Notes under the pieces: generated by a model
Told to the model about the DNA's origin: nothing
Seen by the model: the letters and a program-made list of their open reading frames with translations, nothing else
Databases searched by the model: none
Translations under genes and position numbers: made by a program
DNA from: a virus
DNA length: 64,000 nt
Reading direction: 5' to 3' (one strand)
Virus record (IMG/VR): IMGVR_UViG_3300042466_001120
Span: 45,015 to 109,014 of that record
In this document: positions 43,645-57,683 of the stretch, piece by piece
Layout of the letters: every line of letters starts with the position of its first letter
Numbering within the stretch: the stretch's first letter is position 1

Positions 43645-43717
43645 GGTTCCTTAGTATAGTTTGGTAATATCCCGGCTTTGTAACCCGGAGTCATCAGTTC
43701 GAACCTGATAGGAACCT
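43645..43717 (+). tRNA. tRNA-Thr (TGT)
   Basis: Acceptor GGTTCCT/AGGAACC, T-arm ATCAG-TTCGAAC-CTGAT, loop TTTGTAA. Confidence 0.85.
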
Positions 43718-43760
43718 CAAACAAAAAGAAAAAGTTCTTTGACATATTGGCTTCATAAAA

Positions 43761-43844
43761 GGAGAGATAATCACAACGGCTTGTGACTCCGTCTTGAAAA
43801 CGGCAGGTACTGAAAGGTATGGGGGTCGGCACCTCATCTCTCCT
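43761..43844 (+). tRNA. tRNA-Ser (TGA)
   Basis: Acceptor GGAGAGA/TCTCTCC, loop CTTGAAA, long variable arm. T-loop GTCGGCA is unusual (no TTC). Confidence 0.75.
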
Positions 43845-43852
43845 CTGTAAAT

Positions 43853-43937
43853 TGCGGGGTAGACGAATTAGGCAAAGTCACCAGATTTTGACTCTGGAGG
43901 TAAATTACCATTGGAGGTTCGATCCCTCCCCCCGTAG
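43853..43937 (+). tRNA. tRNA-Gln (TTG) with a long variable arm
   Basis: Acceptor TGCGGGG/CCCCGTA with weak U1-A72 and discriminator G, both Gln identity features; anticodon stem CCAGA/TCTGG with loop TTTTGAC. The variable region is 15 nt with the hairpin GGTA-AAT-TACC, normally seen only in class II tRNAs. Confidence 0.8.
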
Positions 43938-43950
43938 CTAAAAAACAATA

Positions 43951-44026
43951 TCTAGGTGTAGCTCAGTTTGGTAGAGCGGGGAGTTTGGGACTCTCAGGTC
44001 GCAGGTTCGATCCCTGTCACTTAGAC
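43951..44026 (+). tRNA. tRNA-Pro (TGG)
   Basis: Acceptor TCTAGGT/ACTTAGA, loop TTTGGGA, T-arm GCAGG-TTCGATC-CCTGT. Confidence 0.85.
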
Positions 44027-44029
44027 AAC

Positions 44030-44105
44030 GTCTTCGTAGCTCAGTTGGTTTTAGAGCACTCCACTTTTAATGGAGGGGTCACAGGTTCGATTCCTGTCGG
44101 GGACA
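44030..44105 (+). tRNA. tRNA-Lys (TTT)
   Basis: Acceptor GTCTTCG/CGGGGAC, anticodon arm CTCCA-CTTTTAA-TGGAG, T-arm ACAGG-TTCGATT-CCTGT. Confidence 0.88.
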
Positions 44106-44125
44106 CAAAAAAATTTAGTAAAAAA

Positions 44126-44160
44126 GAACGATAGTTACCAAAAAATGGTTATCTTCGTTC
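44126..44160 (+). other. Hairpin between tRNA genes
   Basis: GAACGATAGTTACCA pairs with TGGTTATCTTCGTTC with a small bulge. No U-run; perhaps a processing signal. Confidence 0.45.
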
Positions 44161-44174
44161 CAAGAAACTAAAAT

Positions 44175-44248
44175 ACACTCTTAGCTCAGATGGTAGTAGC
44201 GGTTGTTTTACATACAACAGGTCACAGGTTCAAACCCTGTAGAGTGTA
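44175..44248 (+). tRNA. tRNA-Val (TAC)
   Basis: Acceptor ACACTCT/AGAGTGT, anticodon arm GTTGT-TTTACAT-ACAAC. Confidence 0.88.
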
Positions 44249-44259
44249 CAAAAAATAAG

Positions 44260-44339
44260 GAAGTGTTGAGCATTTGGCTGGCTCGCTTGACTGTAGATCA
44301 AGTCCGAAAGGCGTGTAGGTTCGACCCCTACCACTTCCA
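44260..44339 (+). tRNA. tRNA-Tyr (GTA)
   Basis: Acceptor GGAAGTG/CACTTCC, anticodon arm CTTGA-CTGTAGA-TCAAG, expected class II variable arm. Confidence 0.88.
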
Positions 44340-44347
44340 CAACAAAT

Positions 44348-44436
44348 TGATGGGTGTCCCGAGATGGCCGAAGGGTCCGGCCTGTTAAGCCGATGAGAAA
44401 TATTCTCCACCGTGGGTTCGAATCCCACCCCATCAG
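44348..44436 (+). tRNA. tRNA-Asn (GTT) with a long variable arm
   Basis: Acceptor TGATGGG/CCCATCA, discriminator G (as in bacterial tRNA-Asn), anticodon loop CTGTTAA, T-arm GTGGG-TTCGAAT-CCCAC. The variable arm GAGAA-ATA-TTCTC is a full hairpin, anomalous for Asn. Confidence 0.78.
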
Positions 44437-44459
44437 CTGATTTTTTCCGAACTATCAGA

Positions 44460-44468
44460 TATTTATTA
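44460..44468 (+). promoter_or_regulatory. TATTTATTA element
   Basis: 18 bases before the ATG at 44487. Confidence 0.4.
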
Positions 44469-44486
44469 ATATAAAATGTTAATATT

Positions 44487-45029
44487 ATGGAAAGGTATTC
44501 GGAAAAAATTATATCTTTGAGGAAAGAAGGGAAAACCTACAAAGAGATTACTAAAATTTTAGGTTGTGCAATGTCAACAGTGTCGTATCATTGTCAGATA
44601 CATAAATTGGGGGATAACAACCAAAAAGTGACGGAAGAAGAGAAAGATAAACTTCAAAAATTATACGATGAAGTAGGATCCTTAAAAAAAGTTGCAAGGA
44701 TAACAGGTAGGTCTTTTGAAACTGTTAAAAAACACGTTAATAGTGTGGTTAGAGTTAAAAAGATTAGTGGTTCCCAATCGGTTATATTGTGGAGAAAGAG
44801 AACTAAAAAGAAATTAATTGAATATAAGGGGGGAGGATGTGAATTGTGTGGGTATAGTAAATGTGATTCAGCATTACAATTTCACCATAAAAACCCTGAC
44901 GAAAAAGATTTCTCAATTTCTGGTAGAAGTTTGTCTTTTGACAGATTAAAAGAAGAAGTTGATAAATGTATGTTGGTGTGTTCTAACTGTCACGCCGAAA
45001 TACACGAAAAAAATACCACCGAGAAGTGA
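44487..45029 (+). CDS. HNH endonuclease inside the tRNA array
   Basis: 180 residues. Residues 1-80 hold two helix-turn-helix-like segments (YKEITKILGCAMSTVSYHCQIH and LKKVARITGRSFETVKKHV); the C-terminal half is a zinc-stabilised HNH domain: CELCGYSKCDSALQFHHKNP...CMLVCSNCHAEIH. Likely a mobile endonuclease; its 3' end is followed directly by a GC-rich hairpin region and tRNA-Ile. Confidence 0.85.
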   Translation: MERYSEKIISLRKEGKTYKEITKILGCAMSTVSYHCQIHKLGDNNQKVTEEEKDKLQKLYDEVGSLKKVARITGRSFETVKKHVNSVVRVKKISGSQSVILWRKRTKKKLIEYKGGGCELCGYSKCDSALQFHHKNPDEKDFSISGRSLSFDRLKEEVDKCMLVCSNCHAEIHEKNTTEK

Positions 45030-45088
45030 CTGACGAGTCCGATGACGAGCTGAGGGGGTGGTTAAGAAATACCCCTAAATACGTACCA

Positions 45089-45161
45089 GTTCACGTAGCT
45101 CAATTGGTAGAGCGCCGATCTGATACGTCGGAGGTAATGGGATCGTAACCCGTCGTGAACA
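45089..45161 (+). tRNA. tRNA-Ile (GAT)
   Basis: Acceptor GTTCACG/CGTGAAC, anticodon arm CCGAT-CTGATAC-GTCGG. T-loop GATCGTA lacks the usual TTC. Confidence 0.8.
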
Positions 45162-45219
45162 CAAAAAGGGGGATAACTTGTGTGGGTGCCCCAACTACTG
45201 CAGTAGTACCACACTCTAT

Positions 45220-45308
45220 GGAAAGTAAACCCTGAAGGCGACGGGACATGCCTGCTAAGCATTGTGATCGGTGAAAATCCGATTGTGGATCGTTACCACT
45301 GCTTTCCG
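45220..45308 (+). tRNA. tRNA-Ser (GCT)
   Basis: Acceptor GGAAAGT/GCTTTCC, discriminator G, loop CTGCTAA, long variable arm with ATCGG/CCGAT. T-arm is atypical (ATCGTTA loop). Confidence 0.7.
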
Positions 45309-45313
45309 CAACT

Positions 45314-45381
45314 CCCGTATGATCAGGGATCAAAGTTGGCTCATATCCTACTTGAGGTTGGTTCAAGTCCAACATACGGGA
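45314..45381 (+). tRNA. tRNA-Met (CAT), elongator or Ile2-type
   Basis: Acceptor CCCGTAT/ATACGGG, loop CTCATAT, T-arm GTTGG-TTCAAGT-CCAAC. Only 68 nt. The C1-G72 pair argues against an initiator. It could be tRNA-Ile if the anticodon C is lysidinylated. Confidence 0.75.
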
Positions 45382-45389
45382 CTTATATG

Positions 45390-45462
45390 GTGTATGTAGC
45401 TCAGTTGGTAGAGTGTCGGTTTGTGGAACCGAAGGTCGTGGGATCGTGACCCATCATACACA
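45390..45462 (+). tRNA. tRNA-His (GTG)
   Basis: Acceptor GTGTATG/CATACAC, anticodon arm TCGGT-TTGTGGA-ACCGA. The T-loop reads ATCGTGA. Confidence 0.8.
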
Positions 45463-45466
45463 CAAA

Positions 45467-45632
45467 AGATGATAAGAAGCGTAGAATGACAGACGTGGAG
45501 AGACGTGTCGCAAGGGTACAAACTAAGGATAGGTATTCAATCTTAATTGTATTGATGTAATAACCCAACTCTCTAATGGTGTGTGAAGGTTTCCAAACCA
45601 AGATTCCTGATAAAGTCATTCATCATCTTTTT
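45467..45632 (+). ncRNA. Candidate structured RNA between tRNA-His and tRNA-Trp
   Basis: About 165 nt closed by a two-part stem: AGATGAT pairs with ATCATCT and GAATGAC with GTCATTC, followed by seven T's. Inside, GGTTT-CC-AAACC and ACGTGGAGAGACGT form hairpins. No ORF fits. Perhaps a small regulatory RNA; class not recognised. Confidence 0.55.
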
Positions 45633-45672
45633 TTGACATCCGATGTCGGTCCCGAGCTAGGTCGGGCAATTT

Positions 45673-45743
45673 GCGTGGTACAGACAAGGTGTCGGTCAGG
45701 TCTCCAAAACCTCGACGGGTTAGTTCGATTCTAACACCACGCG
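45673..45743 (+). tRNA. tRNA-Trp (CCA)
   Basis: Acceptor GCGTGGT/ACCACGC, discriminator G, loop CTCCAAA, T-loop TTCGATT. A CCCGA/TCGGG hairpin lies just upstream (45651-45667). Confidence 0.85.
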
Positions 45744-45753
45744 CAAATAACAA

Positions 45754-45826
45754 GGACTCGTAGCTCAGTTGGTAGAGCACAGGACTGAAAATCCTGGTGT
45801 GGTCGGTTCGATTCCGTCCGAGTCCA
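45754..45826 (+). tRNA. tRNA-Phe (GAA)
   Basis: Acceptor GGACTCG/CGAGTCC, anticodon arm CAGGA-CTGAAAA-TCCTG. Confidence 0.9.
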
Positions 45827-45843
45827 CAAAACAAATAGAAATA

Positions 45844-46299
45844 ATGAACAGAGTATTTAGAACGGTTAACGGTGAAACAATTCCTGATGTGGTAAAACAT
45901 ACCTTAGATGTTCTGAAAGAATGTCCATGGGTGGAAGTACACATCGGTACAGACTCACAAAACCACAGAAGAAGTACCGTGTATGTTACGGTAATAGCTT
46001 ATAGGTATGGGAATAGGGGTGTCCATTATATTCTTCACAAACAGAAAGTGAAAAAAATAAGAGATAAATGGACACGTCTTTGGAATGAGGCCGATTATTC
46101 AATTGAGGTTGCCGAATGGTTAACCAAAAAAGTAAAGGTGCAAGTTGAGATTGACTTAGATTATAATAGTCAGGAAAAACATTTCAGTTCAAAACTTGTT
46201 CCTCCTGTTGTTGGGTGGGCAACATCGTTGGGTTATAAAACAAATATTAAACCTGACAACCAAATTGCAACAAAAGCGGCAGATCACCACTGCCGTTAA
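45844..46299 (+). CDS. YkuK-like RNase H-fold protein (DUF458)
   Basis: 151 residues from MNRVFRT; the longer ORF reads through tRNA-Phe and is rejected. The strand VEVHIGTDSQNHRRSTVYVTVIAY and later VEIDLDYN and LGYKTNIKPDNQIATKAADHHCR match the predicted RNase H-like YkuK/DUF458 family (GTDSQ with acidic residues in place). It lies between tRNA-Phe and tRNA-Cys, so a role in tRNA or RNA processing is an attractive guess. Confidence 0.75.
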   Translation: MNRVFRTVNGETIPDVVKHTLDVLKECPWVEVHIGTDSQNHRRSTVYVTVIAYRYGNRGVHYILHKQKVKKIRDKWTRLWNEADYSIEVAEWLTKKVKVQVEIDLDYNSQEKHFSSKLVPPVVGWATSLGYKTNIKPDNQIATKAADHHCR

Positions 46300-46304
46300 T
46301 ATAA

Positions 46305-46376
46305 GGACCTATGACCGAGAGATTTAGGTGCCGGTCTGCAAAACCGGTTAGATTGGTTTGATTCCAATTAGGTCCT
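46305..46376 (+). tRNA. tRNA-Cys (GCA)
   Basis: Acceptor GGACCTA/TAGGTCC, discriminator U as expected for Cys, anticodon arm CCGGT-CTGCAAA-ACCGG. Confidence 0.87.
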
Positions 46377-46383
46377 CAATAAT

Positions 46384-46464
46384 ACCTTCGTGGTGGAACG
46401 GTAGACACGTCAGATTTAGGATCTGATGCCGTAAGGTGTGAGAGTTCGAGTCTCTCCGAAGGTA
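46384..46464 (+). tRNA. tRNA-Leu (TAG)
   Basis: Acceptor ACCTTCG/CGAAGGT, anticodon arm TCAGA-TTTAGGA-TCTGA, class II variable arm. Confidence 0.88.
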
Positions 46465-46476
46465 CAAAAAAGATTG

Positions 46477-46514
46477 ATCCGTTATCTGTTGTGAAACACG
46501 TAACGGATTTTTTT
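46477..46514 (+). terminator. Intrinsic terminator
   Basis: ATCCGTTA pairs with TAACGGAT, an inner GTG-AAA-CAC, then TTTTTT. Ends the tRNA-Leu transcript. Confidence 0.8.
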
Positions 46515-46525
46515 GTATATTGATA

Positions 46526-46534
46526 TATTTATAT
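46526..46534 (+). promoter_or_regulatory. TATTTATAT element
   Basis: 15 bases before the ATG at 46550. Confidence 0.45.
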
Positions 46535-46549
46535 ATAAAATAAAATATT

Positions 46550-46819
46550 ATGAATAGATTAACAGAAAGAGATTTGTCAAGAATTGTTAGACAAGTTATT
46601 AAAGAAGACAAAGAAGATAAGAAAAAAACTATGAATGACATACCTGATAGTTTCTTTAAAAGTTTTTTATCAAAAACTAGTAGCATAATGACAAGCGAGG
46701 AGTTTTCTGATATTGAATCAATTTTAGGAAAAAGAGTTGGATCAAATGGTGAAGGTATGGGTGATGTTTTTGAAAAAATATTTATGGAAGCAAGAACAAG
46801 AAGAAGAAAAAACGATTAA
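46550..46819 (+). CDS. LTESDLxRIV-type leader protein
   Basis: 89 residues. Leader MNRLTERDLSRIVRQVIKEDKE is the family in shortened form. The rest is helical with a basic end (ARTRRRKND). Two bases from the next leader gene. Confidence 0.65.
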   Translation: MNRLTERDLSRIVRQVIKEDKEDKKKTMNDIPDSFFKSFLSKTSSIMTSEEFSDIESILGKRVGSNGEGMGDVFEKIFMEARTRRRKND

Positions 46820-46820
46820 T

Positions 46821-47264
46821 ATGAAAAAAATAATAAGACTTACAGAATCAGATTTAACAAGGATAGTAAAAAAGGCGATTAACGAATCCAAATCACTAAC
46901 TAAAAAACAATTGGATCAGATGGTTAAAGATAGTCTAATCACCCCAAGAGATAGTGAAATCTTAAAACTATATTATATTGATAATATGAGTTTTGATGAT
47001 ATAGCTAATAAGTTTGATAGAACCGTATCAAGTACTAAACAACTAATTAAAAAGTTATATAATGATATTTCAGATGTTGATGGGTTAAAAAATAAAAGAC
47101 AAAGTAAAGATGACTCACAAAAAGAAAACCATATAAATAAAGTTAAAAAAGAAATGAAAAGGGTTAAATTTTATCTTGATAATGGTTATTTAACTAAAAA
47201 TGAAATTATGTCTTTATTTAAAGAAGTTTTAAATGGTGAAGAAAAATTAACAACATTAAGATAA
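46821..47264 (+). CDS. LTESDLTRIV-leader protein with sigma-region-4-like HTH
   Basis: 147 residues from MKKIIRL at 46821. Leader [23 protein letters not shown], then ITPRDSEILKLYYIDNMSFDDIANKFDRTVSSTKQLIKKLYNDI, a helix-turn-helix in the style of sigma region 4 / LuxR-like domains, and a basic coiled C-terminus. If the leader targets it to the head, this would be a DNA-binding regulator delivered with the genome. Confidence 0.65.
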   Translation: MKKIIRLTESDLTRIVKKAINESKSLTKKQLDQMVKDSLITPRDSEILKLYYIDNMSFDDIANKFDRTVSSTKQLIKKLYNDISDVDGLKNKRQSKDDSQKENHINKVKKEMKRVKFYLDNGYLTKNEIMSLFKEVLNGEEKLTTLR

Positions 47265-47270
47265 ATTTTT

Positions 47271-47296
47271 AAATAAAACTTGACACTTTTGAAAAG
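47271..47296 (+). repeat. 26-base direct repeat, copy 1
   Basis: Identical to 47623-47648 (contains CTTGACACTTTTGAAAAG); both copies lie just upstream of a TATTTATAA element, so they may be part of a promoter. Confidence 0.75.
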
Positions 47297-47302
47297 AGTG
47301 AA

Positions 47303-47311
47303 TATTTATAA
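47303..47311 (+). promoter_or_regulatory. TATTTATAA element
   Basis: 13 bases before the ATG at 47325. Confidence 0.5.
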
Positions 47312-47324
47312 TTAAAATAATATT

Positions 47325-47624
47325 ATGAGAAAAACTATAAAATTAACGGAAGGTGATTTATCACGTATTGTTAGACGAGTTATTAAAGAAGATAAAGAAG
47401 AAGATGAAATGGAAGGTATGGGTATGTCCATTACAGTAAAAGATATATTTGAGGCGGTTATAGATGCTCTTCACGATCTTGGTACGTATGATGATGCATC
47501 TATGGGTGAAAAGGCAATGAATTTGGCTAAAATGATTATGAGTAACATGCAAGATGACTTGGCTTACGTTACTGAGAATTATGAGGATCAACTTTATGAT
47601 ATTCTTGGTGATGAAAATTATTAA
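47325..47624 (+). CDS. LTEGDLSRIV-leader protein
   Basis: 99 residues. Leader [27 protein letters not shown] followed by an acidic/methionine-rich helical body. Not recognised. Confidence 0.65.
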   Translation: MRKTIKLTEGDLSRIVRRVIKEDKEEDEMEGMGMSITVKDIFEAVIDALHDLGTYDDASMGEKAMNLAKMIMSNMQDDLAYVTENYEDQLYDILGDENY

Positions 47625-47648
47625 ATAAAACTTGACACTTTTGAAAAG
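47623..47648 (+). repeat. 26-base direct repeat, copy 2
   Basis: Second copy of 47271-47296, followed by TATTTATAA at 47656. Confidence 0.75.
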
Positions 47649-47655
47649 TATCATA

Positions 47656-47664
47656 TATTTATAA
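47656..47664 (+). promoter_or_regulatory. TATTTATAA element
   Basis: 20 bases before the ATG at 47685. Confidence 0.45.
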
Positions 47665-47684
47665 CAAAACAAATAAAAACGCAA

Positions 47685-47759
47685 ATGAAAAATTTACATA
47701 TCATATTATTAGGCGGATTGGCGATAGCTGAGGATCGTTCCTATAAGGAGATGGTATGA
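47685..47759 (+). CDS. 24-residue ORF before a terminator
   Basis: MKNLHIILLGGLAIAEDRSY... short peptide with a hydrophobic start. Placed between a repeat/TATTTATAA promoter-like element and a terminator, like the one at 43456. Confidence 0.35.
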   Translation: MKNLHIILLGGLAIAEDRSYKEMV

Positions 47760-47785
47760 TAAATTAATTATATAATAAATTTTGA

Positions 47786-47816
47786 AACCCATCTCAATTA
47801 CGAGGTGGGTTTTTTT
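47786..47816 (+). terminator. Intrinsic terminator
   Basis: AACCCATCTC-AATTAC-GAGGTGGGTT followed by T's. Confidence 0.85.
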
Positions 47817-47854
47817 GTTCTTTGACATATTGGTAAAAAAAAGTTTAAAAAAGA

Positions 47855-47886
47855 TTTGGTAGATCAAAATAGATTACATATCTTTG
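47855..47886 (+). promoter_or_regulatory. Bacteroidota-type promoter of tRNA cluster 2
   Basis: TTTG at 47855-47858 and TATCTTTG at 47879-47886, 20 bases apart; near-identical to the promoter at 48440. Confidence 0.78.
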
Positions 47887-47972
47887 TAAAACAAATAAGG
47901 AAAAAAGGTTCTTTGAAATATTAAAAATATTGTGGTTGTAAGAAACGGGAAACTCGTAAAGTGCATTAACCT

Positions 47973-48010
47973 GTTGACTCAAGATGGTGAAACGAGAGTT
48001 TGAGTCAACT
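47973..48010 (+). other. Strong leader hairpin before tRNA-fMet
   Basis: GTTGACTCAA pairs with TTGAGTCAAC (10 bp) around a loop that contains GTGAAACGAGAG. Could guide tRNA precursor processing. Confidence 0.55.
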
Positions 48011-48031
48011 ACTAAACTACAAATGGTATAT

Positions 48032-48103
48032 CGCAGGATAGAGCAGTGGTAGCTCGCAAGGCTCATAACCTTGAGGTCGGAGGTTCGAACCCTTCTCCTG
48101 CAA
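48032..48103 (+). tRNA. Initiator tRNA-fMet (CAT)
   Basis: CGCAGGA...TCCTGCA with the C1-A72 mismatch typical of bacterial initiator tRNAs, D-arm AGAGCAGTGGTAGCTC, loop CTCATAA. Confidence 0.88.
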
Positions 48104-48174
48104 CAACTAATAGCCAACCAAGCTTTACTACGATACGGGTAATACCTGTGGGTTAGGGGTGACGGTCAGGAGAG

Positions 48175-48266
48175 ACTGACGATTATGCTGACGTACCGGT
48201 GGATGCTTATATCATCTATGCCCGTAGAGGAAGTTTTAAACGTTGGTTCGATCCCAACCGTCAGTA
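48175..48266 (+). tRNA. tRNA-Ile (TAT) candidate with a long variable arm
   Basis: Acceptor ACTGACG/CGTCAGT, T-arm GTTGG-TTCGATC-CCAAC, anticodon arm GGATG-CTTATAT-CATCT. About 24 nt separate the anticodon and T-arms, so this too has a class II-sized variable region. The anticodon assignment is less certain. Confidence 0.6.
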
Positions 48267-48272
48267 CAATAA

Positions 48273-48344
48273 GCGGGTATCGTATAATGGTTATTACTCC
48301 ACACTTCCAATGTGGAGATGAGTGTTCGATTCATTCTACCCGCA
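48273..48344 (+). tRNA. tRNA-Gly (TCC)
   Basis: Acceptor GCGGGTA/TACCCGC, anticodon arm CCACA-CTTCCAA-TGTGG. Confidence 0.87.
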
Positions 48345-48349
48345 CAAAT

Positions 48350-48419
48350 GGGCCTGATGCCGACGGCAGGTCAACTGATTTGCAATCAGATTGTTTGGGT
48401 TCGATTCCCACAGTGTCCA
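48350..48419 (+). tRNA. tRNA-Ala (TGC)
   Basis: Loop TTTGCAA; third acceptor pair is G3-U70, the Ala identity pair, with discriminator A. The lower acceptor has two mismatches. Confidence 0.7.
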
Positions 48420-48439
48420 CAAAAAAAGTTTGAAAAAGA

Positions 48440-48471
48440 TTTGGCAGATTGAAATAGATTACATATCTTTG
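48440..48471 (+). promoter_or_regulatory. Bacteroidota-type promoter
   Basis: TTTG at 48440-48443 and TATCTTTG at 48464-48471, 20 bases apart; ATG at 48492. Confidence 0.78.
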
Positions 48472-48491
48472 TAGAACAAAAATAAAGAACT

Positions 48492-48773
48492 ATGACAAAC
48501 ACAGAGACAATTAAAACCGTAGGTTTAAAAATTACAAAAATTGAAGGATACGATTATTGTTTGACAGGATACCCAAACAAAAACACAATCCGTAATTGGG
48601 AAGATGCGTATGAGTTTGAAAGTTTTGTACAAGATGTTTTAAAGATTGAAGGTGAGTTTGATTCTGAAAGTGGTCAGTTCTACGTGTACTTCAAAACTAA
48701 ACAAAAGGCAACTGCGGCTTTGAATAAGATTGAAAAACATTTCAAAAAAGTTGGTGAAATGTTAGGTTTGTAA
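48492..48773 (+). CDS. Hypothetical protein in the tRNA array
   Basis: 93 residues with a strong own promoter. Compact alpha/beta (TVGLKITKIEGYDYCLTGYPNKNTIRNWEDAYEF...). It ends eight bases before tRNA-Glu, so it is co-transcribed with the RNAs downstream. Not recognised. Confidence 0.65.
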   Translation: MTNTETIKTVGLKITKIEGYDYCLTGYPNKNTIRNWEDAYEFESFVQDVLKIEGEFDSESGQFYVYFKTKQKATAALNKIEKHFKKVGEMLGL

Positions 48774-48780
48774 GAGTTAA

Positions 48781-48856
48781 TCGCCCGTTGGACAAGTGAT
48801 TGAAGTCGCTTCCCTTTCACGGAAGAGATCATGGGTTTGAATCCCATACGGGTGAC
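48781..48856 (+). tRNA. tRNA-Glu (TTC)
   Basis: Acceptor TCGCCCG/CGGGTGA, anticodon arm CTTCC-CTTTCAC-GGAAG, T-arm ATGGG-TTTGAAT-CCCAT. Confidence 0.85.
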
Positions 48857-49309
48857 AATGAGTGAGAGATACTCAAGATGTTTTTAAGTTCATACAAAAC
48901 TTAACGGTAGAAGTTACACCTACGTTACGGGTACTCGTTGGGAATAAGGAAGGAAGGTTCTCCTCGCCCCCAAGTAAGAACTGACTTTTAAGTGGTAAGA
49001 CACGTTGGGTTTTCAAATAGAAAAACTGTGAATATCTACTCACCATTAATCTCAGGTGGGGAAACTTTGGTCCATTGGTGAAATATTATCATATCTGACT
49101 GTCTATCAGAAGTCCTCGGAGAGTAACCGGGATGAACCGCACAAAGTGTTCTTTTAAAATATTGATAGTGGTTTTCCCCACCTCAACGGATGTCGACAAT
49201 CCAGAGTGGATCAGGAATTCAGCACCCTTTCTGCCGGGGCCCTGATAAAAGTCAGAAGAAGCAGTTAAGATTGGAGCGAGACGGGTACTCCATCACTATC
49301 AACATATTT
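48857..49309 (+). ncRNA. Second large structured RNA region with an embedded tRNA-Asp-like element
   Basis: No ORF in about 450 bases. AGGTGGGGAAA (49054-49064) pairs perfectly with TTTCCCCACCT (49173-49183), and GATAGTG (49164-49170) with CACTATC (49294-49300); ATCC/GGAT and CTGA/TCAG hairpins occur between. The 11-bp stem encloses a tRNA-like segment (next entry). Giant phage RNAs with an embedded tRNA have been described, so this may be a related or degraded copy. Confidence 0.5.
49064..49148 (+). tRNA. tRNA-Asp (GTC)-like element, aberrant
   Basis: Anticodon arm TCTGA-CTGTCTA-TCAGA is perfect, the acceptor ACTTTGG/ACAAAGT has 6 pairs and discriminator G fits Asp, but no normal T-arm (GGTTCRA) exists on this strand. 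Possibly decayed, or part of the larger fold above. Confidence 0.4.
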
Positions 49310-49372
49310 AGTCAGGTGGCGGAAGGGTAAACGCACTACAATCAGCAACAGGTTCGAGTCCTGTCCTGACTA
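49310..49372 (+). pseudogene. tRNA-Leu-like element without an anticodon arm
   Basis: Acceptor AGTCAGG/CCTGACT and T-arm ACAGG-TTCGAGT-CCTGT are perfect. The D-arm TGGCGGAAGGGTAAACGCACTA is Leu-like, but only about 13 bases join it to the T-arm; total 63 nt. First of three elements here with the same acceptor stem. Confidence 0.55.
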
Positions 49373-49377
49373 CGTGG

Positions 49378-49510
49378 GAAAGATCTATCCCGAAAACAGA
49401 ACATGGATCACAAACACGTAAACCTAAGTACCTGTACAGCGGTGAGTAACGGGCTAAGTTATATACAATTCCTCGGAGCTGGGAGTAGAATGCTTAGGAG
49501 CGTGTTTTTA
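49378..49510 (+). ncRNA. Structured RNA ending in a U-run
   Basis: CACG...CCTAAG (49427-49438) pairs with CTTAGG...CGTG (49493-49504), followed by TTTTT; GGGA/TCCC forms a 5' hairpin. Either the 3' end of the region above or a separate RNA of about 130 nt. Confidence 0.45.
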
Positions 49511-49524
49511 AAATATAAAAAACT

Positions 49525-49587
49525 ATGACACCATTATTGTTGATATTATTTATTATGTTTATCTTTGTAGTAAGAAAAAGAAGATAA
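49525..49587 (+). CDS. 20-residue membrane peptide ORF
   Basis: MTPLLLILFIMFIFVVRKRR: one hydrophobic helix and a basic end. Short, but located in an otherwise ORF-free RNA region. Weak evidence. Confidence 0.35.
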   Translation: MTPLLLILFIMFIFVVRKRR

Positions 49588-49598
49588 AATTATTGGTT

Positions 49599-49714
49599 GG
49601 TCAGGAGTGTAATGAGGCACGGTGCCGAGTCCCCAAGACCAATAGTCCCAGACACTTGTGGGTTCTATGGAGTCGTAAGGTTGCTCATTGTGGGTTCGAC
49701 TCCCACCCTGACAT
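49599..49714 (+). other. Oversized tRNA-like element 2 (acceptor GTCAGG/CCTGAC)
   Basis: Acceptor and T-arm (GTGGG-TTCGACT-CCCAC) are perfect, but about 90 bases lie between the 5' acceptor strand and the T-arm, 35-40 more than any normal tRNA. Could be an inserted sequence in a tRNA, or a tRNA-like domain of a larger RNA. Confidence 0.45.
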
Positions 49715-49878
49715 CACCGGTTACTTGATTCCTGGTAGTAGAGTAACAACCATTGGGGAATTCGGGATGTCCCGCGAATGGTGGTGTAAGATAAGAGGAA
49801 CTTACAACGGTAGAGTACCATAAACAAAAGAAACAAGACGTAGAGGTGACTCTGCGTTGGCGCAAATCTCTACCAACT
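49715..49878 (+). other. ORF-free structured spacer
   Basis: GTAGAG...CTCTAC (about 49839-49873) encloses TGCG-TTGG-CGCA. Otherwise nothing assignable. Confidence 0.4.
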
Positions 49879-49879
49879 T

Positions 49880-49972
49880 AGTCAGGTTGGTACAAGGTCG
49901 GTTCGAGTCCGATGGAAGGTCATGGATGTCGGGTAGCTCCCTGTAGAGAGGTTCGATTCCTCTCCTGACTAC
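49880..49972 (+). other. Oversized tRNA-like element 3 with two T-arms
   Basis: AGTCAGG/CCTGACT acceptor again, enclosing two T-arm-like hairpins: GTCGG-TTCGAGT-CCGAT and AGAGG-TTCGATT-CCTCT. ACCAAC/GTTGGT at its 5' end offers an alternative fold. Looks like two fused tRNA halves. Confidence 0.45.
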
Positions 49973-50010
49973 ACTTGACATTATTAAATTAATGTCTTAT
50001 TATTATACAA

Positions 50011-50084
50011 AACCGGGTAGCTCAGCTGGTAGAGCAATCCTTTTTAAACAGGACGTGTCATTGGTTCAATCCCTTTCCCGGTTT
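50011..50084 (+). tRNA. tRNA-like gene with 8-nt anticodon loop (TTA/TAA ambiguous)
   Basis: Acceptor AACCGGG/CCCGGTT and D-arm GCTC...GAGC are perfect. The anticodon stem is only TCCT/AGGA with an 8-nt loop TTTTAAAC, so the anticodon could be UUA (would read UAA) or UAA (Leu). The T-stem is weak (ATTGG/CCTTT). Probably degenerate. Confidence 0.45.
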
Positions 50085-50108
50085 TTTTATTTATAAAATT
50101 AAAATATT

Positions 50109-50499: not shown

Positions 50500-51108
50500 T
50501 TATTTAATGTCTGTTGACTCTATTAGAGTATATGAAAACTTGTTTCCGTGAATTTTAGATGCCTTCTTACATAAAGACATAAACACATCAAAGTCTTTTA
50601 CTCTTTTAAATACTTGACAACCCTCACTCCAATTTTCAACCCACTGTGAGTCTTGACCTGCTTTGTGGATGTTAATACCAAAAATACCAGTATCGGTTTT
50701 TGTTTCTTCAAAAATAAGATCTTTGTTTGCATCTCTCCATACAGTTACATTTCCTAATCTTTGACAAAGAGCTTCATATTTTCCTTGATGTAAATCAATT
50801 TTCCATACACCTCTGTACTGACCCGGTACTAATCTTGCAACACCATTTTTGTTATGGAATTGTTGAACACCCTTTTTACCTGGATCACATGTTGCCATCC
50901 AACAATAGTATTGCCAAGCACCTTTTTCATCTTTAAATGATAATGTTAGATGATCGTCAAACACATTGGTCACTTTTTTATAAACCGCTGGTGACGTGTT
51001 TCTTACTCCTACGATATTCACATCGTAACTTTTGTTGTTTGCGTCTTCAAACCAAACATACCCTTTGGCTTTTACGGCAGCCTCAACCTGTTCTCTTGTG
51101 TAACTCAT
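50500..51108 (-). CDS. L,D-transpeptidase-like (YkuD-type) protein
   Basis: 202 residues. The C-terminal part has GIFGINIHKAGQDSQWVENWSEGCQVF, matching the YkuD catalytic pattern H...S-x-G-C. The N-terminal half contains a WQYYCWMATCDPG segment. Such domains in phages may cut or remodel peptidoglycan crosslinks. It is divergent from the histidine kinase gene; the 78-bp spacer must hold both promoters. Confidence 0.7.
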   Translation of the reverse strand: MSYTREQVEAAVKAKGYVWFEDANNKSYDVNIVGVRNTSPAVYKKVTNVFDDHLTLSFKDEKGAWQYYCWMATCDPGKKGVQQFHNKNGVARLVPGQYRGVWKIDLHQGKYEALCQRLGNVTVWRDANKDLIFEETKTDTGIFGINIHKAGQDSQWVENWSEGCQVFKRVKDFDVFMSLCKKASKIHGNKFSYTLIESTDIK

Positions 51109-51175
51109 AATAATTAATTTTGATTATAAATATTGTGATTTTTGAAAAGTAAATAGGTTTTTTAAGGTATTGTCA

Positions 51176-51184
51176 TATTTATTA
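51176..51184 (+). promoter_or_regulatory. TATTTATTA element of the signalling-lysis operon
   Basis: Two bases before the histidine kinase ATG. TTTTGAAAAG, as in the 26-base repeats at 47.3 kb, lies about 35 bases upstream. Confidence 0.5.
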
Positions 51185-51186
51185 AT

Positions 51187-52806
51187 ATGAAATATCGTTT
51201 AAGAATAAAAATAACATTAGTTATCGCCGCTTTACTAATGATTGCATTTATGTGTGTTAAAATTGCGGTTCTTATTGGGTTACGAGAATCTACAGAAACA
51301 ACTAGATGGCTAGAATTTTTTGGGGTTATTTCTCTCATCCCTATATCTGCGTTATTAATTAAAGACTTTATCAATTCCACTAAAGATACTGTATCTAAAG
51401 AATCGGTGGATAAATTGGTAGAATTAAAACATTTCTTAGATTCTTCTTCCATCATATCTAAAGCTGATGCAAAAGGAAAGATTACATACGTTAATCAAAA
51501 ATTTACCGAAATCTCAGGTTATTCATTAGAAGATGTTCTTGGTAAAGACCACAATATTGTAAATTCTGGAACACACCCAAAAGAGTTTTGGTCTAATATG
51601 TATAAAACTGTTGTTGTGAATAAGGGTCTTTGGAATGAGGTTTGTGTCAATAGGGCAAAAGATGGAAGTCTTTATTATGTGGATACTTTTATTAAATGTA
51701 GTTTTGATGAAAACGGTAAATTGTTAGAGTTTATGTCAATTCGTCAAGACTTAACTTCTTTAAAAAAGACTGAACAAGAAATATCAAATAGAATGAATGC
51801 GATTAACAGATCAAATGCCGTTATTGAATTTGATTTAGATGGTAACATAAAATTTGCAAATGATTTATTTTTAAGTACTTTAGGTTATGATTCGCACGAT
51901 GAACTTGTTGGAAAACATCATAGTATATTTGTTGAAGATGTGGTAAAAGACTCTGAAGAATATTCAAACTTTTGGAAAACTTTAAAAGGTGGTCAATTCT
52001 TTATGGGTGAAATCATTAGAAAGAAAAAAAACGGATCTTTAATTTATCTCCAAGCGACATATAACCCCATCATAGGAACCGATGGGAAACCATATAGAGT
52101 AATGAAAATCGCCACTGACATCACCCAAAGTATTAATCAACAAATGGAGATTGAAAAGAAAAATACCTATTTAGAGCATGCCGCAAAGATATTAAGACAC
52201 GATATGCACTCTGGTATTAATACATATATGCCAAGAGGATTAAGCTCTTTAGAACGAAGATTAACTCCTGAAGATATAAAAAATTTAAAAATAGAATCCC
52301 CACTTAGAATGATTAAAGAAGGTTTAAAACATTCTCAAAAAGTATATAAAGGGGTTTACGAATTTACCAATTTGGTTAAAAGAGATGTTGTTTTAAATAA
52401 AGCGGAATGTGATTTAAAATTAATCCTATCTGATTATCTATCATCTACTGCATATATTAGTCAAGTTATTATAGATGAGTTACCAACTATTGAGGTAAAC
52501 GAAGCACTATTTTGTACTGCGGTTGATAACTTGATTAGAAACGGTTTAAAGTATAATGATTCGGATTCTAAATTTGTTAAAATAACTTCAGACGAGAATT
52601 ATGTTTACATTCAAGATAATGGTAGAGGAATCACACAAGAAGATTTTGATCACCTATGTAAACCATATACCAGAAAAGAAGGACAAAAAGAATCTGGCAC
52701 TGGTTTGGGTTTAAATATTTGTGTTGCTATATTAGAAGAACACGGGTTTAATATTACCTGTGAGAAAAATGAAATAGGAACAAAAATGAAAATAAAAATA
52801 AAATAA
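51187..52806 (+). CDS. Membrane PAS-PAS histidine kinase
   Basis: 539 residues. Two N-terminal transmembrane helices (about 9-30 and 43-60), PAS domain 1 (about 90-200, ITYVNQKFTEISGYS...KDGSLYYVDT), PAS domain 2 (about 210-320, KFANDLFLSTLGY), phosphoacceptor helix HAAKILRHDMHSGI (His about 338), and HATPase_c boxes N DNLIRNGLKYND, G1 IQDNGRGI and G2 GTGLGLNICVAIL. All catalytic parts are intact. A complete histidine kinase on a phage is very rare. First gene of an operon with a receiver protein and, downstream, the lysis genes. Confidence 0.92.
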   Translation: MKYRLRIKITLVIAALLMIAFMCVKIAVLIGLRESTETTRWLEFFGVISLIPISALLIKDFINSTKDTVSKESVDKLVELKHFLDSSSIISKADAKGKITYVNQKFTEISGYSLEDVLGKDHNIVNSGTHPKEFWSNMYKTVVVNKGLWNEVCVNRAKDGSLYYVDTFIKCSFDENGKLLEFMSIRQDLTSLKKTEQEISNRMNAINRSNAVIEFDLDGNIKFANDLFLSTLGYDSHDELVGKHHSIFVEDVVKDSEEYSNFWKTLKGGQFFMGEIIRKKKNGSLIYLQATYNPIIGTDGKPYRVMKIATDITQSINQQMEIEKKNTYLEHAAKILRHDMHSGINTYMPRGLSSLERRLTPEDIKNLKIESPLRMIKEGLKHSQKVYKGVYEFTNLVKRDVVLNKAECDLKLILSDYLSSTAYISQVIIDELPTIEVNEALFCTAVDNLIRNGLKYNDSDSKFVKITSDENYVYIQDNGRGITQEDFDHLCKPYTRKEGQKESGTGLGLNICVAILEEHGFNITCEKNEIGTKMKIKIK

Positions 52807-52824
52807 AAAACAAAAAAGAAAAAA

Positions 52825-53262
52825 ATGATTGATTCAATTTTATTAGTAGATGATGAGGATTTATTCCATTTGGTATTTGAAGACGCTTGTTCGTTACTTG
52901 ACATAAGTTTGTCTTTAAATGCGTTAAATAGTTCTGACGAGGCAGCAAAACTATTTCAAAAATGGTTCCAGGATGGTGACAATAATGATAAACCTGAATG
53001 TGTGTTTGTTGACTTAAACATAATTGGTAGTTCTTTTGATGGTATAGAGTTAATTAGAAAAGTTAATTTTGAATATGGTAATCACGTAGTTATTGGTATC
53101 ATATCATCATCAAACGAACCGGAAGAACAAGCAAAAGCGCTCCAGGCTGGTGCTCAATTCTGGATTATTAAATCAGATGATATTGAACCTCGTTTAGAAG
53201 AGTTTAGAAAAGATTATGACGGTTACAAAAATAGAACCTTACCTTTTAAAGTATATAAATGA
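52825..53262 (+). CDS. Single-domain response regulator (receiver)
   Basis: 145 residues: acidic pocket LLVDDED, phosphoacceptor Asp in CVFVDLNI, Ser-rich IISSSNEP at the Thr/Ser position and Lys in FWIIKSDD. No output domain. It is the obvious partner of the kinase 18 bases upstream, and may act by protein binding. It overlaps the next gene by 4 bases. Confidence 0.9.
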   Translation: MIDSILLVDDEDLFHLVFEDACSLLDISLSLNALNSSDEAAKLFQKWFQDGDNNDKPECVFVDLNIIGSSFDGIELIRKVNFEYGNHVVIGIISSSNEPEEQAKALQAGAQFWIIKSDDIEPRLEEFRKDYDGYKNRTLPFKVYK

Positions 53263-53933
53263 TAAAGTTAGATAAAAATAGTGAAGAAAAGTTAATAAAC
53301 CTACTTGAGTCCAAGAACATTGGACTTGAGGGGAATGTTATAAAGTTGATTGAATCGGACAACGATTCGTTTAAAGACTATTTAAAAAAATGTACGGATA
53401 AAGATAAAGATTCTAGACGAAAACGATTAGAGATTACTAAAAAAATACAATTACAAAACAATGAATTATCTGATCTAAACGAACAGAATCAAAAAATGAT
53501 GGAAGATCTTCAGTCCACACTAAAAGAGGCTGAAGAACAAAAAGTAAAGATTGAAGGGCAAAACGGAGAGTTGATTAATTGGAGAGAAGAGAACGAAAAG
53601 ATTCAACAGGAACTACAAAAGGAGATGATTAAATCTGAAACCGCAAGAATACGTGCGGAGGAAGCAAAAACAAACGCAATCAACGATCTTGACATACTTC
53701 AAAAGAAAAACCAAACAGAACTTATATCAACAATTGTTAGAGTTGCTCTTTATATTATTGTTGGTGTTGGTATTGTTACTACCGGAGTTTATGTATTCAC
53801 TCTTGTTATGGGTAAAGACACACAAGTTATTAGTGCTGCTTGGTCTAACATATTTGGTATACTTCTAACAAACGCATTCTCAATAGTAGGAACCATTATG
53901 GGTATTAAATACGCAACAGAAAATAAACAATAA
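53259..53933 (+). CDS. Membrane coiled-coil protein of the two-component operon
   Basis: 224 residues: long charged coiled coil (about 65-160) then two transmembrane helices (about 165-188 and 195-218). ATGA overlap with the receiver gene suggests stoichiometric, coupled expression. A candidate output of the signalling pair, for example a regulated membrane or holin-associated protein (inference). Confidence 0.7.
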   Translation: MIKLDKNSEEKLINLLESKNIGLEGNVIKLIESDNDSFKDYLKKCTDKDKDSRRKRLEITKKIQLQNNELSDLNEQNQKMMEDLQSTLKEAEEQKVKIEGQNGELINWREENEKIQQELQKEMIKSETARIRAEEAKTNAINDLDILQKKNQTELISTIVRVALYIIVGVGIVTTGVYVFTLVMGKDTQVISAAWSNIFGILLTNAFSIVGTIMGIKYATENKQ

Positions 53934-53944
53934 AACAAAAACGT

Positions 53945-54769
53945 ATGTTATTAAAAGTAGGATCTACAGGAGAAGATGTAAAAAAACTCCAAACAAAATT
54001 AGGATTAACCGCTGATGGTTCTTTTGGACCTAAAACTGAAACGGTGGTAAAAGAATGGCAAACTAAAAACGGATTAACCGCTGATGGTATTGTTGGTGAC
54101 GGTACTTGGTCTAAAATGTTCGGGACAACTCAAGTAGTAAAAGAAGATGTTGTGATTACACCGGTAACAGGATTGAATATTGAAAAACTAAAAGGTCACA
54201 TTCCTGATGTTGTTATCGCACAGATTCCTGAAACCGCAAAAAAATTTAATATCACAACTAACTTGAGACTTGCTCACTTCTTATCACAATGCGGTCACGA
54301 GTCAGGAGGTTTTAAGGCGGTATCAGAAAATTTAAATTATTCTGCCGACGGATTAAAAAGAACGTTTGGTAAATACTTTCCTGGTAACTTGGCTGAATCA
54401 TACGCAAAACAACCTGAAAAGATCGCATCAAGAGTCTATGCTGACCGTATGAGTAACGGAAACGAAGCGTCAAAAGAAGGATATAAATTTAGAGGTAGAG
54501 GATACATCCAATTAACAGGTAAAGGAAACTACACCAGTTTTACAAAATTTATCGGTGAAGATTGTGTTGCGAACCCTGACTTAGTTGCAACTAAATACCC
54601 ATTGGCATCTGCGGCATTTTTCTTTGACTCAAACAAACTTTGGTCAATATGTGATAAAGGAGCTGATGATGCTACGGTTACTGCGGTAACAAAAAGAGTA
54701 AATGGAGGAACAATAGGTCTTGCGGATAGAATTAAACACTTCAAAGAGTATTATAACTTATTAAAATAA
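53945..54769 (+). CDS. Endolysin: peptidoglycan-binding domain plus GH19 chitinase-type lysozyme
   Basis: 274 residues. Residues 1-65 are a PG_binding_1 domain (VKKLQTKLGLTADGSFGPKTETVVKEWQ...GIVGDGTWSKMFG). The rest is a glycoside hydrolase family 19 domain: LAHFLSQCGHESGGF, with the catalytic Glu in CGHESGG, and YKFRGRGYIQLTGKGNYTSF. No signal peptide, so export needs a holin. Twelve bases after the membrane coiled-coil gene. Confidence 0.92.
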   Translation: MLLKVGSTGEDVKKLQTKLGLTADGSFGPKTETVVKEWQTKNGLTADGIVGDGTWSKMFGTTQVVKEDVVITPVTGLNIEKLKGHIPDVVIAQIPETAKKFNITTNLRLAHFLSQCGHESGGFKAVSENLNYSADGLKRTFGKYFPGNLAESYAKQPEKIASRVYADRMSNGNEASKEGYKFRGRGYIQLTGKGNYTSFTKFIGEDCVANPDLVATKYPLASAAFFFDSNKLWSICDKGADDATVTAVTKRVNGGTIGLADRIKHFKEYYNLLK

Positions 54770-54778
54770 AATAAAAAA

Positions 54779-55633
54779 ATGGCAGAAAATAATACAATAT
54801 TTTTTAAACTTGAGGAATATTACGACAACGATGGATCTGAGGAGTTACAAGCATCTACCGATGTAAATGGTAAGGTTAATATCTCAGTAATTAATTTACT
54901 AAATAAGGAAACCGCTGCGGATCAACATAGAGAAGTTGTTGGTTTAACTCCATTATCACGATACACCATAAATGATACGACAGAAAATTTATTTAGTGTT
55001 AGTTTTATAACTGACGATGATGGGTATACTAAAGTTGACCTATCCAAAATGTTATTAAACACTACATTTATAAAGTTTTATCAAAAGTACAAAGGTGAGG
55101 TAACTTTAAATGTAACAATTGAAATACCAAAAACAAATAAATATAACGTTTTTGTTGGTAACGCTAAAATAACACCATCGTGGAAAAAAGAAGAATCAGG
55201 AATTATATTTGAAAGTTATGACTATTACAATAATGACGATACTATCATTTTATCACCAATTGAAGATAAAGTAACTGATTTGGCAACATTAAGACAAACA
55301 TATAAAACAGTTGAAGAAAATTACCTTTTAGTTAAAAAAAGATATGAGAGTCAAATTGTTGGTGAGGTTGATTTAGAAATTGATACTACGGAAACTTATG
55401 AACCTAAAAGTCTTAAAACCGTTATAACAAGATTATTAGAATTTCAAGTGGGTACTTTACAACCGGCACTTGAATATACAAAAACCGCAAAACTAACAAC
55501 AGAATACGACAGGTTAAACACAATGGATAAATTAGTTAATATTTTATCTAAAATGTATCCAAATATTACTATTGAAGATGGTGAAGGAATTCCTTATAAT
55601 TCGGATATTGATCCAAAATTGGAAACATTGTAA
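54779..55633 (+). CDS. Hypothetical structural-type protein
   Basis: 284 residues, beta-rich N-terminal two-thirds (VNGKVNISVINLL, EVTLNVTIEIPKTNKYNVFVGN) and a helical C-terminus. Its position between the endolysin and the holin-like gene suggests the same late operon. Could be a tail fibre or baseplate part. Confidence 0.55.
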   Translation: MAENNTIFFKLEEYYDNDGSEELQASTDVNGKVNISVINLLNKETAADQHREVVGLTPLSRYTINDTTENLFSVSFITDDDGYTKVDLSKMLLNTTFIKFYQKYKGEVTLNVTIEIPKTNKYNVFVGNAKITPSWKKEESGIIFESYDYYNNDDTIILSPIEDKVTDLATLRQTYKTVEENYLLVKKRYESQIVGEVDLEIDTTETYEPKSLKTVITRLLEFQVGTLQPALEYTKTAKLTTEYDRLNTMDKLVNILSKMYPNITIEDGEGIPYNSDIDPKLETL

Positions 55634-55642
55634 TATTTATAT
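55634..55642 (+). promoter_or_regulatory. TATTTATAT element
   Basis: 26 bases before the ATG at 55669; the longest spacing of the set. Confidence 0.35.
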
Positions 55643-55668
55643 ATAAATAAACTTTTAAATTTTCAATT

Positions 55669-55836
55669 ATGAAACTTACAAAAGAACAAGTATTAGGGAT
55701 CGTTAGACACACATTAACATTTGTTGGTGGTATTGTTGTAATGAAAGGTCTTGTTGATGAGACGGTCGTTACTGAGATCATCGGTGGTGTTATGACATTA
55801 GTCGGAACTATTTGGTCAGTTATTAACAAAAAATAA
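55669..55836 (+). CDS. Holin-like membrane protein
   Basis: 55 residues: N-terminal MKLTKEQVLGIVRH, two hydrophobic segments (TLTFVGGIVVMKGLV and IIGGVMTLVGTIWSVI) and a basic end. Size and topology fit a small class II holin; the endolysin lies 0.9 kb upstream. Followed by a strong terminator. Confidence 0.6.
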   Translation: MKLTKEQVLGIVRHTLTFVGGIVVMKGLVDETVVTEIIGGVMTLVGTIWSVINKK

Positions 55837-55855: not shown

Positions 55856-55882
55856 AACCCCCATAAAAAGTGGGGGTTTTTT
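55856..55882 (+). terminator. Intrinsic terminator of the lysis operon
   Basis: AACCCCCA-TAAAAAG-TGGGGGTT followed by T's. Confidence 0.85.
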
Positions 55883-57055: not shown

Positions 57056-57628
57056 TTACTCAACTCTGAATATCTTTACATAATCAACAAATACAAATAT
57101 AGTACCGTCTTGATTCATAACCGAATGACAAGCAAACACTCCCGGTAAGTTTGAAGAATCAAACTCCATATTTTGAACTTGTTTGTGACCCTCAGAGTTT
57201 TCCCACGCAATTACAATTCTAGAAGCCAACTCATCATAAGAAGAATAATCCACGTTGGACTTAAATGCGTTTTCATATAAACTCATTTTTGGTAATCCGT
57301 TTTGTAACATTACACTTTCACCACCATAAATATTTTTGGCTTCAGATATTATTTTATTTCTTATTGAAAGATCGTTATATCTCTCTTTGTTTGGTGGGTG
57401 ATAAAAAGATCCCGATAACGAAACCTCAATACAATTAGGGTTTGAAAACAATTGATAAACGGATTTTGAAGTGATCAATGTATCAATACCTCTATCACGT
57501 CTTAATTTGTTTATCTCTATTAAAACTTTTTTATTTAAAAGTTGAGAGTTAAACGTGGAGTAAGTAACCCCCTGACCTAATACGAAATTTAGTACAAGAG
57601 AAAAAACAAGAACAAATAGGGTTTTCAT
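57056..57628 (-). CDS. Secreted CAP-superfamily protein
   Basis: 190 residues from the ATG at 57628, chosen for the signal peptide MKTLFVLVFSLVLNFVLGQ. CAP/SCP features: VLIEINKLRRDRGIDTL helix, ELASRIVIAWENSEGHKQVQNM (W-x-S-x-GH) and FACHS. It should be exported to the periplasm or outside. CAP proteins on phages are unusual. On the minus strand a TATATTTG-like element (57657-57664) lies upstream. Confidence 0.75.
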   Translation of the reverse strand: MKTLFVLVFSLVLNFVLGQGVTYSTFNSQLLNKKVLIEINKLRRDRGIDTLITSKSVYQLFSNPNCIEVSLSGSFYHPPNKERYNDLSIRNKIISEAKNIYGGESVMLQNGLPKMSLYENAFKSNVDYSSYDELASRIVIAWENSEGHKQVQNMEFDSSNLPGVFACHSVMNQDGTIFVFVDYVKIFRVE

Positions 57629-57683
57629 GAGATAATATTTTTGATTTATGATGATACAAATATACAAATTTATTTTTAATTCA

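Follow-up and report, generated by a model that had tools for sequence, protein, structure and literature searches.

The closest described precedent for control of lysis timing by a phage is lysis inhibition in phage T4, which involves holin T and the antiholins RI and RIII, RI being the antiholin precedent (PMC11413866). From jumbo phages a divergent receiver domain has been reviewed that was never found together with histidine kinases (PMC7824862) and that is a different thing from the module treated here. In the open-access literature, we found no description of phage lysis that employs a histidine kinase, receiver or PAS domain. The window analyzed in this work is a stretch of 64,000 nucleotides (bases 45015-109014 of the 109,014-base IMG/VR virus record IMGVR_UViG_3300042466_001120) from a virus whose record contains T4-like replication and baseplate genes and an SbcC-like gene. 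In this window, genes for a membrane histidine kinase, a stand-alone receiver and a coiled-coil membrane protein (CC), together termed the triad, lie directly in front of lysis genes. We consider it probable that they constitute a sensor-controlled lysis module or timer, a view built on what can be read from sequences: the operon, its intact catalytic residues, restriction to viruses, a natural fusion, the lysis-cassette context and selection. The features of the locus are as follows (window positions).

50500-51108, minus strand: phrog_3000 family protein, probable cell-wall enzyme, divergent from the kinase gene; adjoins the triad in many loci
51109-51186, no strand assigned: intergenic region between the divergent phrog_3000 and kinase genes
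51187-52806, plus strand: membrane histidine kinase (Pfam domains, transmembrane (TM) segments, catalytic residues)
51787-52140, plus strand: second PAS domain (PAS2) of the kinase; shares 57% identity with the PAS of a one-component PAS-hairpin protein
52825-53262, plus strand: single-domain receiver, phospho-acceptor D63 (codon 53011-53013)
53259-53933, plus strand: CC, the likely effector; N-terminal domain, long coiled coil, C-terminal two-TM hairpin
53703-53930, plus strand: conserved hairpin of CC, common to PAS-hairpin proteins; consensus dTqiIgstWSNmF..LLTNaFSIvGTImG.KYa
53945-54769, plus strand: GH19 endolysin, PG_binding_1 plus GH19 (Pfam)
54779-55633, plus strand: 284-aa protein between lysin and holin, without assigned function, found only in near relatives
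55669-55836, plus strand: holin, PF23987 Phage_holin_10 (Pam3 gp28 family; Pfam)
55856-55878, plus strand: terminator-like hairpin 3' of the holin gene, in an AT-rich region where such sites are barely above chance

The kinase gene ends 18 bases before the receiver gene, receiver and CC genes overlap by four bases, and the GH19 lysin gene follows CC after 11 bases. The tight operon described in the initial annotation is therefore exact in its coordinates and spacings. That annotation had also placed a holin-like gene behind a GH19 endolysin, and both proteins are indeed recognized by Pfam (endolysin: PG_binding_1, 4e-13, and Glyco_hydro_19, 3e-9, 37.3 bits against a cut-off of 25.5; holin: 2e-17, 63.2 bits against a cut-off of 27), but the 284-aa gene between them had been overlooked. 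The divergent phrog_3000 gene was likewise absent from it.

The kinase possesses two TM segments (residues 12-30 and 41-59), a first PAS domain (PAS1, about residues 84-195), PAS2 (about 201-318), a DHp domain with H338 and an HATPase_c domain (442-538). PAS_3 (3e-22) and HATPase_c (2.9e-16) were recovered with Pfam, while HisKA gave no match in the protein. H338, N448/N452, D477-N-G and GLG506-508 are invariant across 46 kinases, and the protein has the defining parts of a histidine kinase, i.e. a DHp domain with the phospho-accepting histidine and an HATPase_c domain with N, G1 and G2 boxes. The receiver (Response_reg PF00072, 4.4e-8) combines the receiver fold with two acidic residues (D9, D10), the phospho-accepting D63, S94/S95 and K116, all of them invariant in 37 representatives, among which mean column identity reaches 87%. 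It lacks an output domain and is present as a single copy in all 28 large contigs that hold it. The earlier claim of a complete two-component system with all catalytic motifs thus holds for the window and extends to its relatives.

PAS1 is nearest to PAS domains of the FAD type (MmoS, 3EWK, 1.1e-25; NifL, 2GJ3, 4e-14; Aer, 8DIK, 7e-14) and by sequence belongs to the MmoS/NifL/Aer group, which makes it a candidate FAD-binding domain. Redox or oxygen state is therefore a reasonable guess for the signal perceived by the kinase. Among triads the sensor architectures comprise PAS-PAS, GAF-PAS-PAS, GAF-PAS or none that is recognized. Sixteen triads encode a second kinase, and the sensor part of these second kinases in dual-kinase loci has no Pfam domain match. 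In such loci (L061, L175, L190 and others) a secreted protein of about 205 aa with a coiled-coil-like stretch (c7) is usually encoded between the two kinases and is a possible partner, in the periplasm, for the second of them. In locus L240, a gene for a 330-aa patatin-like (phospholipase-type) protein, with GGGLRG and GTSTGG found by eye, is inserted between kinase and receiver.

Relatives in viral contigs of up to 322 kb number 109 for the kinase, 589 for the receiver and at least 558 for CC. Not a single match for the receiver, CC or the hairpin of the fused form described below was found in 50,697 isolate phages. Among 84,980 bacterial and archaeal species there was one CC relative; its contig carries terminase- and PhoH-like genes and is interpreted as phage DNA within a metagenome bin. 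With one relative in the species collection and none in isolates, the CC family is viral and here confined to uncultivated viruses. The statement that phage-encoded histidine kinases are very rare accordingly applies to isolates (0 of 50,697 for receiver and CC) but not to uncultivated phages. A homologue of CC, A0A6J5PRT3 from an uncultured Caudovirales phage (53% identical; structure search, E 6e-16), had already been deposited, without assigned function. By our own reading of sample numbers the source habitats are mostly freshwater, and a gliding/type IX secretion system-type C-terminus in the neighboring protein c21 suggests Bacteroidota as host.

The order kinase, receiver, CC is kept in 83 distinct triads. 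The kinase gene ends no more than 22 bases from the receiver gene in 79 of them, and receiver and CC genes overlap in 79 of the 83 (by four bases in 64, by one base in 15); receiver and CC are translationally coupled. All three genes are under purifying selection, with median ratios of nonsynonymous to synonymous substitution rates (dN/dS) of 0.058 for the receiver, 0.095 for the kinase and 0.126 for CC. Synteny and purifying selection across this many triads argue that the operon is no chance arrangement. Sequences diverge least in the receiver (mean 0.13), followed by the catalytic half of the kinase (0.27), CC (0.39) and the sensor half of the kinase (0.56), a ranking which indicates that the output side has been retained while sensors vary. 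These data bear on the proposal that a host-derived two-component system merely hitch-hikes, kept by the phages as auxiliary genes that have nothing particular to do with lysis. In its favor, bacteria commonly possess kinases and receivers, and ancestral synteny could explain part of the linkage. However, the CC family is restricted to viruses, selection on the module is strongly purifying, the catalytic half and the receiver are kept where the sensor half is not, and, as set out below, lysin classes switch while the module stays; we regard hitch-hiking as very improbable. The initial annotation had suggested a phylogeny to decide whether the kinase groups with phage or host kinases. In its place, the DHp/ATPase region was searched against 148 sampled genomes from the phylum of the metagenome-assembled genome holding L212, which may not be the phylum of the host, and the best matches were about 25-40% identical. 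The kinase is no stray host gene.

Strong evidence for the role of CC comes from a one-protein form that is newly recognized here. In at least 120 viral contigs, retrieved by a search with a variant of the hairpin motif, PAS and CC hairpin reside in a single protein (about 245-262 or 368-392 aa), in which a short coil links one or two PAS domains to the hairpin. The L316 protein, encoded on the minus strand, matches PAS2 of the window kinase over its residues 11-131 (57% identity) and the window CC over residues 118-243 (48% identity); hairpins of the two forms share 68% identity. In the eight kinase-type contigs tested for comparison, a single query matches the kinase PAS and the CC hairpin in separate proteins. 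That the fusion in L132 is an assembly chimera was considered and rejected, as many other contigs carry the same fusion. The receiver is absent from eleven large contigs with the fused form, and the two forms are mutually exclusive in the large contigs tested. Since input and output of the window system are here joined without kinase or receiver, the fusions are strong sequence evidence for joint action of PAS2 and hairpin and for CC as the effector, with PAS very probably as input and the hairpin as output. In the window version a phosphorelay would be inserted between the two. The earlier suggestion of the coiled-coil protein as likely effector, made on the grounds that the receiver lacks an output domain, is thereby backed by natural fusions.

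The same fusions speak against the view that the phage kinase and receiver target two-component, motility or transcription pathways of the host and that CC merely anchors the receiver. A receiver that is more conserved than CC, at 87%, fits a conserved outside partner, and it lacks an output domain. Yet the one-component proteins keep the hairpin in the absence of receiver and kinase, the DHp/ATPase region shows only the limited similarity to the 148 genomes given above, and translation of CC is coupled to that of the receiver. We therefore hold such host signalling to be improbable.

CC itself has 224 aa, two TM segments and a large soluble part, and it occurs in a lysis context with a recognized holin encoded nearby. 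Its AlphaFold model (pLDDT 86, pTM 0.33) comprises an N-terminal domain, a long helix running into TM1, and TM2. Matches in the PDB, by sequence and by fold, were chance coiled coils only and were discarded. The fused form has neither the N-terminal domain nor most of the coil. This suggests that the part of CC missing there takes up the signal of the receiver; the N-terminal domain is probably the docking part.

Lysis genes accompany both forms. A lysin is encoded no more than three genes away in 77 of 82 PAS-hairpin loci and in 53 of 105 CC loci (within five genes, 66 of 102 CC loci), compared with a background of 8 of 354 other genes in the same stretches (2%). The linkage to an endolysin noted initially is thus common but, for the two-component form, not universal. 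Lysins beside the module belong to GH19 (PF00182), GH24 phage lysozymes (PF00959), peptidase M15 (PF08291), phrog_3000 and an amidase-like type, PAS-hairpin loci having four main classes. In L018:6778-7572 a relative of the phrog_3000 protein is fused to PG_binding_1, and the phrog_3000 protein of the window is therefore probably a wall enzyme; its AlphaFold model (pLDDT 55) was too poor and was not used. In triad loci the lysin lies directly downstream (in the window and many others), divergently upstream (L037, L073) or some genes downstream (L061). L018 has a GH24 lysozyme first, then a PG-binding lysin and a PF05105 holin; the kinase follows this holin without a gap and precedes receiver and CC. 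Cassettes of the fused form also hold PF05105 holins and spanin-like lipoproteins, the latter identified by eye. The occurrence of the same module beside unrelated lysins points to a functional tie to lysis rather than to the descent of one cassette. Two further neighbors were seen: a two-TM protein of 72-114 aa (cluster c1, e.g. L081:12316-12579) recurs beside both forms and looks holin-like, yet has no holin family match, and a full-length DnaK (Hsp70) is encoded near the triad in L073, L116, L210 and L037.

The linkage also bears on the idea that the module is a superinfection or envelope sensor, which protects or remodels the infected membrane and is co-located with lysins only as another set of late membrane-directed genes. 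Kinase and effector are both membrane proteins, some triads are distant from lysins, and c7 between dual kinases could report on the periplasm. A general membrane role, however, does not call for the presence of PAS-hairpin proteins in lysis cassettes with varied lysin classes in almost every locus, and we consider this explanation rather unlikely.

Several observations weigh against a lysis timer. No lysin of the tested classes lies within five genes in 36 of 102 CC loci, and in 7 of 30 large contigs the distance to the GH19 gene exceeds 10 kb (range 10-75 kb). Part of the linkage could stem from the clustering of late genes, and the loci are related by descent, so that counts do not represent independent events. 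The relatives are all metagenomic and none is an isolate. CC has no match to known holins in Pfam, PHROG or PDB by sequence or fold, and a separate recognized holin often adjoins the module. Mantel correlations for co-divergence are 0.52 for receiver and CC and 0.42 for receiver and kinase core, but only 0.22 for CC and kinase core, and 0.41 for GH19 and CC; these values do not demonstrate strict co-inheritance of the triad as opposed to its lysin.

For the lysis module we propose the following sequence of events. The PAS domains of the membrane kinase would read an intracellular signal, possibly through a bound ligand, and the kinase would phosphorylate the stand-alone receiver. The receiver could then bind and act on the N-terminal coiled-coil region of CC, by which the two-helix membrane hairpin would be switched. 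The switched hairpin, as a signal-gated hole-former or as a modulator of the holin, would alter when holin and endolysin open the cell, in the manner of either a trigger or a brake. In other phages the circuit would be shorter, a PAS domain of this kind being joined directly to the hairpin. A more specific version is that CC and PAS-hairpin proteins are signal-gated holins, a new hole-forming class opened by the phosphorelay or by a PAS ligand and probably responsive to redox or oxygen state. We put this forward as a tentative possibility. The hairpin is more constant than the surrounding lysis genes, which favors self-assembly or a conserved partner; a nearly invariant hairpin next to varying holins and lysins is more easily explained by self-assembly to form a pore than by binding of any one holin.

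Some features of the window and record stand apart from the module. A T4 late-promoter octamer (TATAAATA) at 51125, upstream of the kinase gene, was dropped as a candidate because only 4 of 42 copies precede a gene. The octamer TATAAAAT precedes genes in 14 of 34 copies in the whole record and is a candidate phage promoter element. An island of 17 tRNA genes occupies 43645-50085 and includes, just ahead of the lysis region (50010-50085), a tRNA predicted to have a four-base anticodon (ttaa). On the minus strand, 57056-57667 encodes a secreted, possibly CAP/SCP-like protein whose relatives have HNRVQN-type stretches and which occurs in four related loci.

A complete sensor circuit beside the lysis genes of many uncultivated bacterial viruses suggests that these viruses sense the state of the host to decide when to lyse it. 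If confirmed, lysis timing can fall under true signal transduction, and this would account for how a phage might adjust its burst time to the energy state of its host. A new effector family would be defined, together with a natural series from one- to two-component circuits with the same input and output. Should the gated-holin version be true, aquatic phages of a large group would lyse in accordance with the energetic state of the host and not by a fixed clock. As a PAS-hairpin protein and its lysin amount to only two short genes, the idea is testable in a laboratory strain.

The proposed module resembles T4 lysis inhibition in that a phage-encoded sensing layer on membrane lysis proteins would shift lysis time. 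In T4, a periplasmic antiholin binds the holin directly, whereas here a cytoplasmic PAS domain or phosphorelay would feed a two-TM coiled-coil protein, and searches with the triad proteins reported no RI- or RIII-like match. The stand-alone receiver, with its D9/D10/D63/S94-95/K116 set and no output domain, is of the type of CheY and other single-domain regulators, but it probably acts on a viral coiled-coil protein in the membrane and not on the flagellar motor. PAS1 aligns with the FAD-PAS domains of MmoS, NifL and Aer, including GxDHxIVNSG and W...NRxKDGxxYxVD; in contrast to those sensors it is viral and would drive a receiver and CC instead of chemotaxis, nif or mmo output. Finally, the small two-TM hairpin in a lysis cassette recalls two-TM holin-like proteins such as LysF1a (PMC13056207), from which CC and the PAS-hairpin proteins differ by their large cytoplasmic sensory or docking parts.

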